From a virus: a stretch of 58,587 nt of DNA. Below are positions 2,614 to 5,959 of the stretch, piece by piece. Below the pieces are notes generated by a model, which ran no database searches, was not told the origin of the DNA, and worked only from the letters and a program-made list of their open reading frames with translations. The stretch covers positions 1 to 58,587 of IMG/VR virus record IMGVR_UViG_3300024259_000036; one strand, given 5' to 3'. Made by a program: the position numbers and the translations under genes. Every line of letters begins with the position of its first letter. Within the stretch, counting starts at the first letter, position 1.

Positions 2614-3405
2614 TTAAATTTGATGATCGTTTGCTTTTTCATCTACTTCCTTACCATCCTCATCCATAAACATACCTGATTCCTCTAAATATTTTAACTC
2701 CTCCTCTAATGTTCGTTCCTCATTAACATCCAGCATGTCCAGATAATCACCTTCACCATTCTCAAAGTAAAAATCTTCTGCGCCATATACACCACCATAA
2801 CCATAAGCGTTTTGTTTAAGATTACTCTTAGGGAACACTGATACAGCCTTCTTAATGTTTTCCTCAATTACTTTATTAAAGGCTTCCTTATCGTAATCAA
2901 CATCAATCTTCAATTTGACCACGGCTTTAACAATCTTCAATGAACCACATGGAGTTTTCCATCTCATTTGTCCATTAATTCCCTCATTGGAGATACAGAG
3001 GGAGATGTCATTGTTTTGATTAATCCAATTATCATCTGTTCCTGAAAATCCATTACCCATACCATGATGTGAATGAATTACTCCTATGATAGGCATCCTA
3101 TTACAAATAGAAGAATCAATATCTGTAACACTTCCAGCACTCACATGCTGTTTAGGAATATAAATATCTGTAATAGTAGTATCTTCACCTACCAGATAGG
3201 CTAACCATTCAATATTTTTAAACTTTTCCATAAGATATTCAATTTTATCCTTAGACAAAGGATTAATAAAAATATCAATAGTTTCAGGAGCCTTACTACA
3301 ATCAGAAATCATATCAATTTCAGTTTCCCAGCAAGTTTCCTTAGGTACAAAAACTTTAACTTCCTTTAATTTTCCTTTTTTATTTGTAGGTAGAAATCCC
3401 ATCAT
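2614..3405 (-). CDS. JAB/MPN (JAMM) metalloprotease, Ubl-cassette deubiquitinase (BilD-like)
   Basis: 263 aa. The JAMM zinc site is intact: Glu66, then H111-S-H113, seven residues, S121-x2-D124. JAMM proteases remove or process ubiquitin-like modifiers by cleaving after a C-terminal Gly. It is the last gene of a Ubl, E2-like, E1-like, JAB series. The series is broken by an antisense GIY-YIG gene at 3478-4149, after which this gene has its own promoter (3437-3464). RBS AGAAAGG before the ATG. The Asp/Glu-rich tail (residues 215-263) is unlike a compact JAB. Family certain; cassette function inferred. Confidence 0.9.
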   Translation of the reverse strand: MMGFLPTNKKGKLKEVKVFVPKETCWETEIDMISDCSKAPETIDIFINPLSKDKIEYLMEKFKNIEWLAYLVGEDTTITDIYIPKQHVSAGSVTDIDSSICNRMPIIGVIHSHHGMGNGFSGTDDNWINQNNDISLCISNEGINGQMRWKTPCGSLKIVKAVVKLKIDVDYDKEAFNKVIEENIKKAVSVFPKSNLKQNAYGYGGVYGAEDFYFENGEGDYLDMLDVNEERTLEEELKYLEESGMFMDEDGKEVDEKANDHQI

Positions 3406-3436
3406 TTTTTATCCTTTCTTATTCATTTTTAATTTT

Positions 3437-3464
3437 ATTATATCACAATTTTTTAATATGTAAA
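3437..3464 (-). promoter_or_regulatory. Promoter of the JAB gene, TTTACA-N16-TATAAT
   Basis: Near-consensus boxes 32 nt upstream of the JAB start, between it and the 5' end of the antisense GIY-YIG gene. Confidence 0.75.
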
Positions 3465-3477
3465 CATAAATACCATT

Positions 3478-4149
3478 ATGTATGGATTAATATATAAAGC
3501 AACTAATATCCAAAATGGTATGTCCTATGTAGGACAGACAACTAAAACCTTACATAGAAGGAGAACCACACATATATGTAGTTCGAGAAAACCCAAAACA
3601 TACTTTCATAATGCCCTTCGTAAATATAATGAAAAAGAATTTGAATGGTCAATAATAAAAGAATGTAATAACCAAAATGAGTTAAATAATTCTGAAATAT
3701 ATTATATTAAAGAATATAACACTCTTGCTCCTAATGGGTATAATCTTACAGGTGGAGGATATAAAAGTCCTATGATAAATCCATCTAAGGAGACTATTAA
3801 AAAACATAAAAAAGCCTGTAAGAAAGCTAATCGAAAATTTAAAGGTAAAAATAATTGTATGAAAAAACCTGAAATCATACAAAAACATAAAAAGGCTGTT
3901 AATAACAAAGAAAAATGTCTAAAACAAAGTAAATTTATGAAAATTAATAATCCTAATAAAAACCCTCAAGTCATTAAAAATAAATGCAAACATGATATAT
4001 ACATATTATCACCTTTAGGTATTAAATATCATGTCACGAACCTTAAAAAATTCTGTAGAGATAATAACTTATGTTATGTAAGTATAAGGAATCGAATAAA
4101 TCATAAAATAAAGAAAATAGATTATAAAGGTTGGTTATTACAAGAATAA
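3478..4149 (+). CDS. GIY-YIG homing endonuclease, inserted in the Ubl cassette
   Basis: 223 aa. The GIY-YIG core is at the N-terminus (LIYKATN then SYVGQT, residues 4-21, with the following Arg helix and Glu near residue 73), followed by a Lys-rich linker and a C-terminal DNA-binding region. Paralogous to 40853-41647. It lies antisense between the E1-like and JAB genes and overlaps the E1 stop by 12 nt at its 3' end. CATAAATA lies about 10 nt before the start. It is a mobile gene and probably unrelated to the cassette's function. Confidence 0.85.
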   Translation: MYGLIYKATNIQNGMSYVGQTTKTLHRRRTTHICSSRKPKTYFHNALRKYNEKEFEWSIIKECNNQNELNNSEIYYIKEYNTLAPNGYNLTGGGYKSPMINPSKETIKKHKKACKKANRKFKGKNNCMKKPEIIQKHKKAVNNKEKCLKQSKFMKINNPNKNPQVIKNKCKHDIYILSPLGIKYHVTNLKKFCRDNNLCYVSIRNRINHKIKKIDYKGWLLQE

Positions 4150-4716
4150 ATCCTCTACATTACATCCCACTTCTTTGTTTTCATATTTCATAATCTTAGC
4201 GACTGCTAGTGCTGCTATAATACTTGCAGGAACTACCCAAGAGGGTGTAATTTGGTATCCATCCTCTGCTTCACCCCATTCAGCTACAACTTCATTTAAA
4301 GACATGCTAAGACCATCGTACCCAGCCTTGACATATCTGGCACCCATAGATTTTGCAATCTCTTGGTTATTAAGTTGGGATTCATAATTATCAGTGCAAT
4401 CAATGACCCAGTCTGTTTTGGCGGCATTAAACTTTTGATACTTAAAAGGTCTAGTAGTGATATTACAATTAGGTCTTAACATTTTCACTACCATACCAAC
4501 CATATCTGCTTTATTTTTTCCTATAAATTTCATAGGAATATCCAAACGATTAAGGTTGGATTCCTCAACTATATCATCGTCATAGACATAAATATCTTTG
4601 ATACCAGACATAGCCGCAAATTTACCTACCCAGAAGCCGATGCCACCTGCCCCGATAATTGAGATGCTCATATCTGTATTAAGGTCTAATTTCTCCTGCC
4701 TCTCATAGAATCCCAT
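4138..4716 (-). CDS. E1/ThiF-like adenylating enzyme of the Ubl cassette (BilC-like)
   Basis: 192 aa from the ATG at 4716, one base after the E2-like stop; the longer upstream reading would overlap the E2-like gene by 110 bp. Rossmann ATP-binding loop GAGGIG (22-27), acidic DDD at 46-48, NLNR (54-57), K68 and IDCTDN (105-110) are the ThiF/MoeB/E1 landmarks. These enzymes adenylate the C-terminal Gly of a ubiquitin-like protein. Zinc-binding CxxC pairs are absent and no typical catalytic Cys loop is evident (Cys only at 84, 107, 185), so thioester formation is uncertain. The 3' end overlaps the antisense endonuclease by 12 nt. Confidence 0.88.
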   Translation of the reverse strand: MGFYERQEKLDLNTDMSISIIGAGGIGFWVGKFAAMSGIKDIYVYDDDIVEESNLNRLDIPMKFIGKNKADMVGMVVKMLRPNCNITTRPFKYQKFNAAKTDWVIDCTDNYESQLNNQEIAKSMGARYVKAGYDGLSMSLNEVVAEWGEAEDGYQITPSWVVPASIIAALAVAKIMKYENKEVGCNVEDLFL

Positions 4717-4717
4717 T

Positions 4718-5578
4718 TTATGTGCTCCAAATATTATCTCGTTGAAAGTTATCGTTAATACCAATGGCATCTGACTTCTTATTAGAGGTACTGAACAAAT
4801 CCACATCATCTTGTTTTTTAGCTTCACTATGTTTTTCTAATGTGGATGCTCTCATCAATCCTCTAGGTGACTGACTTGCCAATGAACCCATATTAACTGT
4901 TTCCAAAACAATCTCTGCTTGCTTTGCTATGTCAATGATATCATCAGGTGTTTCCCATTTTTTAGGCCAAACCCATCCACCCCAACAGTTATGATGATAA
5001 TGTTGAAAATGATCTAATCCAATAGGTTTCTTAACAGTAACATTCATTACCTTATCACCCATTGTTTCGACACAAATAAGAACATGATGAATCAATCTCC
5101 TTGAATATTTAGGATCAATAATCCTATCATTGATATACTTAGGCCAATATACTGCTTGCATCAGCCACAACAATCTTCCATCATCATATCCTTTGGAAAG
5201 TGATAATCCTTGTTTTGTGTGCTGATAAGTAATGTCAGGCATCAAGTTAGCAGAGTTCAATTTTCTATCCAGATCCACTTTTTTTGATTCATATTCATTC
5301 TTAACAGTGGATACAAAATCGGACATTTCATCAAGTTTTTGTTTTACAGTCTTACCGATTTGCATTAATCTTTTAGAAAGTTTTTCTTTCAATTCTGCTC
5401 TAATATCATCTTCAATATTACAGTCAATTTCCTCTTGAACGGTGAATTTCAGGATTTTACTTCCACTTCTGACCTGAAATCCATCAACCTTTAGATCATC
5501 AATATCAACACTATTAAGTTTATTCAGAACACTTTCCATAGTATCGTTAATTTTATCTTCTGTTTTAATCATTATCAT
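4718..5578 (-). CDS. E2-like (UBC-fold) protein of the Ubl cassette (BilB-like)
   Basis: 286 aa, or 284 from the second ATG, which is better spaced from AAAGG. Residues 1-130 are a charged helical extension. Residues 130-245 hold HFQHYHHNCWGGW (190-202), an H-rich stretch followed by Cys198, placed like the HPN...C active site of E2-like proteins. The C-terminal 40 residues look disordered. Position between Ubl and E1-like genes supports the call. A 102-nt gap from the Ubl gene contains two hairpins. The fold assignment is by motif and context only. Confidence 0.65.
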   Translation of the reverse strand: MIMIKTEDKINDTMESVLNKLNSVDIDDLKVDGFQVRSGSKILKFTVQEEIDCNIEDDIRAELKEKLSKRLMQIGKTVKQKLDEMSDFVSTVKNEYESKKVDLDRKLNSANLMPDITYQHTKQGLSLSKGYDDGRLLWLMQAVYWPKYINDRIIDPKYSRRLIHHVLICVETMGDKVMNVTVKKPIGLDHFQHYHHNCWGGWVWPKKWETPDDIIDIAKQAEIVLETVNMGSLASQSPRGLMRASTLEKHSEAKKQDDVDLFSTSNKKSDAIGINDNFQRDNIWST

Positions 5579-5680
5579 ATACCTTTATATTAAGTGTTGC
5601 TCCCCCACCGTAGCAACAATCCCTGTGAACCTAATTCAACTATTTGGATTAGAGTTCTTAACACCAAAAACTTTTAAAGG

Positions 5681-5959
5681 TTAACCTGCAATGTCATACT
5701 TCAACAGCTCAATCTTATCACCTTCGGCCACAAGTTCAGGTGCATCTGATGGCAGGATTTCCTCACCATTCAATACAACACGAAATTTACCCAAACCGGC
5801 TTCCTGTGCGATACCACCGATTGCACTTCTGAAACTGGTACCAGCATCAACATCAATTCTGGAACCATTAACAAACACAAATGGATCTGATCCTTCAACC
5901 TCATCCACTTCCAATCTCGCATCTTCATCTGGACTATTGTCCCAATATTCTTCACTCAT
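5681..5959 (-). CDS. Ubiquitin-like beta-grasp modifier (BilA-like), C-terminal Gly
   Basis: 92 aa. An acidic N-terminal extension (about 25 residues) precedes a single beta-grasp-like domain with FRVVLNGEEI and GDKIELLKY strands, ending ...DIAG. ThiS, MoaD and ubiquitin-like proteins need a terminal Gly for adenylation; here the protein ends in Ala-Gly with no tail to trim. First gene of the cassette, under the promoter at 5989-6017. Unlike the two-domain ISG15-like BilA, only one domain is seen. It could also be a sulfur carrier, but E2-like and JAB neighbours favour conjugation. Confidence 0.8.
   Translation of the reverse strand: MSEEYWDNSPDEDARLEVDEVEGSDPFVFVNGSRIDVDAGTSFRSAIGGIAQEAGLGKFRVVLNGEEILPSDAPELVAEGDKIELLKYDIAG

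Follow-up and report, generated by a model that had tools for sequence, protein, structure and literature searches.

The stretch of DNA considered here is the whole of the IMG/VR record IMGVR_UViG_3300024259_000036, a linear virus contig of 58,587 bases (hereafter the window), which carries on its minus strand the genes of a putative ubiquitin-like protein (Ubl), an E2-like conjugating enzyme, an E1-like adenylating enzyme and a JAB/JAMM isopeptidase, in this order of transcription (Table 1). The four open reading frames lie where a reading of the letters alone (the sequence-only reading) had placed them, with the HYHHNC motif and C198 of the E2-like protein and the HSH-x7-S-x2-D motif of the isopeptidase. 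That they form a cassette by more than chance is borne out by the matches to ThiF (PF00899, 1.9e-22) and Prok-JAB (1.2e-4), by a gene order conserved in about 40 loci and by ratios of nonsynonymous to synonymous substitution rates (dN/dS) of ~0.13-0.27. Two features had escaped that reading, namely a GIY-YIG homing endonuclease gene between the E1 and JAB genes and the strict linkage of the cassette to the genes of the sliding clamp and clamp loader.

Table 1. The conjugation cassette and neighbouring features, in positions of the window.
Feature	Position	Strand	Description
Ubl	5681..5959	-	Single predicted beta-grasp domain, 92 residues; acidic N-terminal tail with EEYWD; C-terminus YDIAG
E2-like conjugating enzyme	4718..5578	-	286 residues; C198 codon at 4987-4985, within HYHHNC
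E1-like adenylating enzyme	4138..4716	-	192 residues; MoeB/ThiF Rossmann domain alone; PF00899 1.9e-22
JAB/JAMM isopeptidase	2614..3405	-	263 residues; HSHHGMGNGFSGTD = HSH-x7-S-x2-D
GIY-YIG homing endonuclease	3478..4149	+	223 residues; PF01541 1e-8, phrog_314 5.5e-28; between E1 and JAB, antisense
Sliding clamp (T4 gp45-like)	6027..6776	-	phrog_223 1.3e-7; directly upstream of Ubl, a position conserved in relatives
Clamp loader small subunit (gp62-like)	6776..7138	-	phrog_225 5.5e-17
Clamp loader large subunit (gp44-like)	7710..8606	-	phrog_168 4.1e-58
Ro60/TROVE-vWA protein	350..1942	-	PF05731 2.4e-35; downstream of JAB
Noncoding DNA	1943..2613	-	~650 nt, from JAB to the Ro60/TROVE gene
tRNA array	20219..30227		Large array
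tmRNA	42933..43300		Phage-encoded; tag ADDYELRMAA

The most likely start codon of the E1-like gene is the ATG at 4716, which adjoins the end of the E2 gene; with this start, instead of the listed GTG at 4827, the protein has 192 residues. The elements RQ, GxGGxG, D, N-x2-R, K and DCTD are invariant in 21 of 21 relatives, and the conserved positions D46/D48, N54, R57, K69 and D109 could be aligned with a MoeB-like protein and with Uba1/MccB. The lack of an obvious catalytic-Cys loop, pointed out in the sequence-only reading, was confirmed: the protein has neither a catalytic-Cys domain nor a CxxC zinc motif, and its sole invariant Cys is C107 of DCTD. Matches to PADLOC, PRTRC and NCBIfam models are partial and restricted to the common ThiF adenylation domain. 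In one related locus (L130, 8452-9923), a second E1 piece of 59 residues lies 700 nt downstream, owing to an intron, an insertion or a sequencing error. An E1 match in a Halomonas plasmid (L045) was rejected as a relative of the cassette, being an ordinary MoeB-like protein by alignment.

The JAMM residues E66, H111, H113, S121 and D124 are invariant in the JAB relatives. The Prok-JAB match of the window protein lies under the gathering score, and the domain was matched in all 17 relatives (best 1.4e-9); the JAB profile had no meaningful match among PDB sequences. The homing endonuclease gene is not part of the conjugation system; in most relatives, the nearest (L002) among them, only a short distance separates E1 from JAB. 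A sigma-70-like sequence, TGATATAAT, was read by eye just upstream of the JAB start.

The Ubl has no sequence match in Pfam, PHROG or PDB and is named only through its predicted fold. Its AlphaFold2 model (mean predicted local distance difference test (pLDDT) score 79.9) has the element order beta-beta-alpha-beta-beta-beta, and its fold matches at Z ~6 include SUMO, ubiquitin and ThiS/MoaD. The model thus agrees with a single-domain Ubl, as had been proposed. Among 23 Ubls, the Ala of the C-terminal AG is invariant and the Gly is present in 22; 13, including that of the window, end in AG, one (L014) ends in AA, and nine continue for 1-5 residues past AG (T, R (twice), A, LV, RANR, NVNP, LERGF, GEITG). 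Short tails of this kind would be expected of a Ubl precursor that JAB trims. An acidic-x-W-small motif is common to the N-terminal tails of the Ubls (EEYWD, RETWD, EVWGS) and the C-terminal tails of the E2s (DNIWST, DVWGS), lying at ~5940-5959 and 4718-4735 in the window, and is lost from the Ubl in the L019/L034 group. The idea that this shared motif (EYWD in the Ubl tail, DxWS in the E2 tail) is a clamp-binding peptide is unsupported, because the C-termini of the phage DNA polymerases read LNLFFN or LSLFFK instead; few other proteins carry the motif.

The E2-like protein likewise matches nothing in Pfam, PHROG or PDB, and its identity comes from the predicted fold only. In the AlphaFold2 model (mean pLDDT 75), a conserved N-terminal segment and a long helix (55-109), which accounts for the long N-terminus already noticed from sequence, are followed by a UBC-like domain (~106-252) and a disordered tail ending in DNIWST. 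When this domain was compared by VIA-align, UBC E2s made up 41 of the 50 best rows (Z 4.2-5.1). Structure prediction, which had been proposed as a check, thus upheld the beta-grasp of the Ubl and, for the E2, gave mainly UBC E2 rows at Z 4-5 only. The putative active site is H193-Y-H195..C198-W-G; HYH-x(2-7)-C-W-G is invariant in an alignment of 24 of 24 E2 sequences, most of which have a W-x-S/T-P-like segment ~10 residues past C-W-G, and no conserved His follows the WG after C198. Eukaryotic UBC enzymes have the motifs HPN...C and WSP, which the two phage elements resemble by analogy. A tandem second E2 copy of 248 residues, which lacks the N-terminal segment and keeps HYH...CWG, was seen in L009 (4267-5973), and in L028 (5986-6891) the E2 gene is interrupted in a single contig out of several that are almost identical, by an intron, an insertion or a sequencing error.

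Relatives of the cassette were collected from viral contigs. Scanning with E1 gave 11 loci (53-76% identity). Scans with E1 and E2 alignments enlarged the set to 23 non-redundant loci, a number that includes the window as well as two contigs from a Thermoplasmata metagenome-assembled genome (MAG), and after scans with the clamp and with the Ubl the non-redundant phage loci numbered about 40 by our own count. Wherever the sequence is long enough, the genes lie on one strand in the order clamp loader large subunit, clamp loader small subunit, clamp, Ubl, E2, E1 and JAB, with further genes between these members in some loci. In every complete case the cassette is downstream of a T4-type clamp loader and sliding clamp, and its own order is always Ubl-E2-E1-JAB. 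The way in which the loci were searched for does not account for this linkage, because the clamp had no part in the scans with E1, E2 and Ubl. Between L003 and L012, dN/dS is about 0.27 for the Ubl, 0.19 for E2, 0.13 for E1 and 0.21 for JAB, with dS of 0.56-0.77 across the four genes; all four are under purifying selection.

Terminase matches in five of the larger contigs confirm that the carriers, a group of uncultivated T4-like phages, are tailed. The two distinct cassette contigs L040 and L041 are binned in the Thermoplasmata MAG, which is about 5 Mb; misbinning is the likely explanation, the alternative being an archaeal host. Among INPHARED phages, no cassette was found with the window nucleotides, with E2 or E1 of the window or with a second E2, and a second E1 gave distant ThiF proteins only; scans of viral contigs using the single E2 or JAB sequence of the window gave nothing. 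No phage-encoded Ubl cascade was found in the open-access literature. The conserved phage cassette for putative Ubl conjugation is real and is so far undescribed within the open-access literature searched.

The sequence-only reading had described the cassette as having BilABCD order, and this did not hold. The Bil operon encodes a Ubl, an E2, a JAB (BilC) and an E1 (BilD), in that order, and its Ubl is matured by the JAB (PMC11354881). It is similar to the phage cassette in having four separate genes for a Ubl, an E2 with a catalytic Cys (a putative one in the phage), an E1 and a JAMM protease. However, the order Ubl-E2-JAB-E1, found also in two PF14455-positive bacterial loci (L062, L064), differs from Ubl-E2-E1-JAB in the window and its relatives. 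The Cys-Glu-His-His (CEHH) motif of BilB, which belongs to PF14455, is absent from the phage E2s, which have HYH...C instead, and 0 of 24 matched PF14455 in a search. BilD has an inactive and an active adenylation domain (IAD and AAD) and a Cys domain, whereas the phage E1 is a single Rossmann domain, and BilA has two Ubl domains, whereas the phage Ubl has one, although short Ubls encoded in L062/L064 suggest that the two-domain feature may vary. Finally, Bil serves in bacterial defence, whereas the phage genes are linked to the replisome. By these comparisons, the phage cassette is not BilABCD.

The PRTRC cassette, which we take to be operon type 6d of Iyer et al., also shares component types with the phage cassette. 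Type 6d has a single small Ubl ending in Gly and a separate E2, JAB and ThiF-type E1 (PMC1779556), and the phage E1 aligns with the PRTRC E1 at an hhalign E of 1.8e-9; against TIGR03736 it scores 27.7 bits, below the cut-off of 144.75. The type 6d E2 lacks an upstream His and has one downstream of the Cys, whereas the phage E2 has the invariant HYH upstream of C198 and no conserved His downstream. The order E2-JAB-E1 in L047-L049 also differs from that of the phage, as does the presence of an additional alpha-helical protein in this type of operon. CBASS Cap2/Cap3 is comparable in its E1-type adenylation domain and JAMM protease, but Cap2 is an E1-E2 fusion that conjugates cGAS with no separate Ubl (PMC10097602) and lies beside a nucleotidyltransferase, whereas the phage E1 and E2 are separate genes and no nucleotidyltransferase was matched among the flanking genes searched. 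In the lambda tail assembly proteins I (Ubl) and K (JAB and NlpC), a phage Ubl likewise adjoins a JAB (PMC1779556), but that tail-assembly locus has neither E1 nor E2.

Flavobacterium phage FpV4 (KT876724) carries JAB and ThiF genes as well, but in the order JAB-ThiF; in hhalign comparisons of small sets, these were the closest to the phage JAB (2.7e-7) and E1 (2.7e-11). The neighbouring proteins of 420 and 362 residues do not resemble the E2 family of the cassette. The locus (L043, 1622-6724) comprises JAB at 3701-4972, ThiF at 4947-5633, a Ubl-like N-terminus, recognized by eye, in 1622-2491, and two large proteins without identification, and is possibly a second, different Ubl system in an isolated phage. 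The JAB and ThiF genes of FpV4 mean that parts of Ubl pathways are not confined to a single phage lineage. No match was found by hhalign between the phage E2 or Ubl profiles and the Bil, PRTRC and FpV4 sets, which are shallow (1-4 sequences). In broad terms, the phage cassette has what is expected of Ubl conjugation: a beta-grasp modifier with a C-terminal Gly, an E1-type adenylation domain with its catalytic residues, and the E, HxH, S and D of a JAMM protease.

We consider it probable (roughly 0.72) that the cassette encodes a complete and reversible ubiquitin-like conjugation pathway of the phage, which would be expressed together with the replication genes. This reading draws on gene content, order and conservation, the sequence families of E1 and JAB, and the predicted folds, which are fair for the Ubl and weak to fair for the E2; the invariant or near-invariant active sites, the short tails past AG in nine Ubls and the purifying selection on all four genes speak for it as well. 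Where the Ubl has a tail, as in some relatives, JAB would trim it to the C-terminal AG. The E1 would then adenylate the Ubl glycine, probably as a MoeB-like homodimer in which, judging from the conserved residues, the arginine of the N-terminal RQ reaches into the ATP site of the partner. Since no conserved Cys occupies the catalytic place of the E1, the adenylated Ubl may be handed straight on to C198 of the E2. With its long N-terminal helix serving to position it, the E2 would transfer the Ubl to a target, probably to a lysine, with HYH in the role of the HPN motif. Removal of the Ubl by JAB would complete the cycle, making JAB both maturation enzyme and isopeptidase.

Several observations weigh against this pathway. 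The Ubl and E2 profiles gave nothing meaningful against PDB and Pfam, the structural matches of the E2 are weak (Z 4-5), and Foldseek with the E2 model found no UBC match below E 1. The Ubl of L014 ends in AA, and all genomes with the cassette are uncultivated contigs. The cassette is also not essential to the clade, because five clamp relatives (L112/L114, L116, L125-L127, L141, L143) do not have it downstream. That none of the four parts was found near the clamp in these, and E1 nowhere else in the five contigs tested, counts in favour of the pathway. In a clamp tree, in which many branches are weakly supported, lineages without the cassette are interspersed with lineages that have it (L131 bears the label "no" in the tree, although this truncated contig does encode the Ubl; L141 was not entered because of its short length). 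This distribution fits, without proving, an old and mostly retained module with several losses. The clamp gene of L141 (1896-2624) is in two pieces, through an intron, an insertion or a sequencing error.

Presence in some clamp relatives and absence from others would also fit an accessory trait, such as a weapon that acts for the benefit of the phage by tagging the structural proteins of rival phages or prophages in the manner of BilABCD, or host proteins during takeover; the same types of component occur in the bacterial Bil (PMC11354881) and CBASS Cap2 systems, as in a ThiF/JAB locus of CBASS type. Such a use appears unlikely, however, because the rigid clamp linkage and the near-universal retention in about 40 loci are unlike those of mobile defence cassettes, and because E2, Ubl and E1 all differ from those of Bil. 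Reversible modification of the phage's own virion or other late proteins, tuned by JAB, is quite improbable: the cassette belongs to the replication block, and the terminase gene is far away in the contigs where it was located, even though this four-part, presumably reversible pathway sits in phage genomes and clamp-linked genes may serve late steps, since T4 gp45-type clamps also drive late transcription.

The weak similarity of the Ubl to ThiS (TIGR01683, E 0.029), the MoeB/ThiF-like E1 without a catalytic Cys and the richness of the window in tRNA genes would suit a ThiS/MoaD-like sulfur carrier that is activated by the E1 and processed by JAB. This role is nevertheless very improbable, because every complete cassette has a conserved, Cys-bearing UBC-like E2 and because the thiamine and molybdenum cofactor pathways have no JAB according to Iyer et al. 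(PMC1779556); moreover, no rhodanese or sulfur-acceptor gene was noticed beside the cassette, although no systematic search was made. It is scarcely credible that the proteins are non-catalytic decoys that mimic or poison a host Ubl system, because the active sites are all conserved, the four genes are under purifying selection and all four would be unnecessary for this purpose, although captured parts of host systems are frequent in phages.

If the cassette is a conjugation pathway, a replication-stage protein of the phage or host is favoured as its target over a purely structural one, because the genes are clamp-linked. That the Ubl is conjugated to the sliding clamp, clamp loader or polymerase, as a viral counterpart of PCNA ubiquitination or SUMOylation, is a tentative and rather unlikely proposal; tagging of this kind would switch the replisome, for example among replication, repair and clamp-dependent late transcription, and JAB would reset it. 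No specific candidate for a modifiable clamp lysine emerged, the only invariant one, K14, being in the N-terminal LKKAT segment. Known prokaryotic Ubl conjugation operons are mostly systems of host defence or mobile elements; here, a full cascade seems to be a permanent component, kept by selection, of the replication block of a phage lineage. If this is correct, bacterial viruses have ubiquitin-like signalling of their own, an E1 that lacks a catalytic-Cys domain offers a minimal system for direct transfer from adenylate to E2, and the question arises of whether replication clamps are tagged outside eukaryotes.

The window is probably a fragment of a larger genome. Its T4-type replication genes encode the clamp loader subunits, the sliding clamp, a gp32-like single-strand binding protein, a primase, an RNA ligase and a ribonucleotide reductase, and it has 26 tRNAs and a tmRNA. 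A tRNA-Pyl-like gene (cta) is present near the clamp region of L004 (555-628).

The Ro60/TROVE gene is linked to the cassette only in some relatives (L002, L004, L005) and is therefore regarded as context rather than core; the best phage match of its product is in the archaeal virus HGTV-1. The noncoding DNA between JAB and this gene, which was compared with that of the same three relatives, gave no Rfam match at E<1 and had a fold z of -2.06. Blocks of TACTTC are conserved in it near 2540 and 2330, a sequence resembling the T-arm of a tRNA, ACTGGTTCGATCCCAGT, lies near 2425-2409, and the region may encode a YrlA-like Y RNA of the phage for its Ro60.

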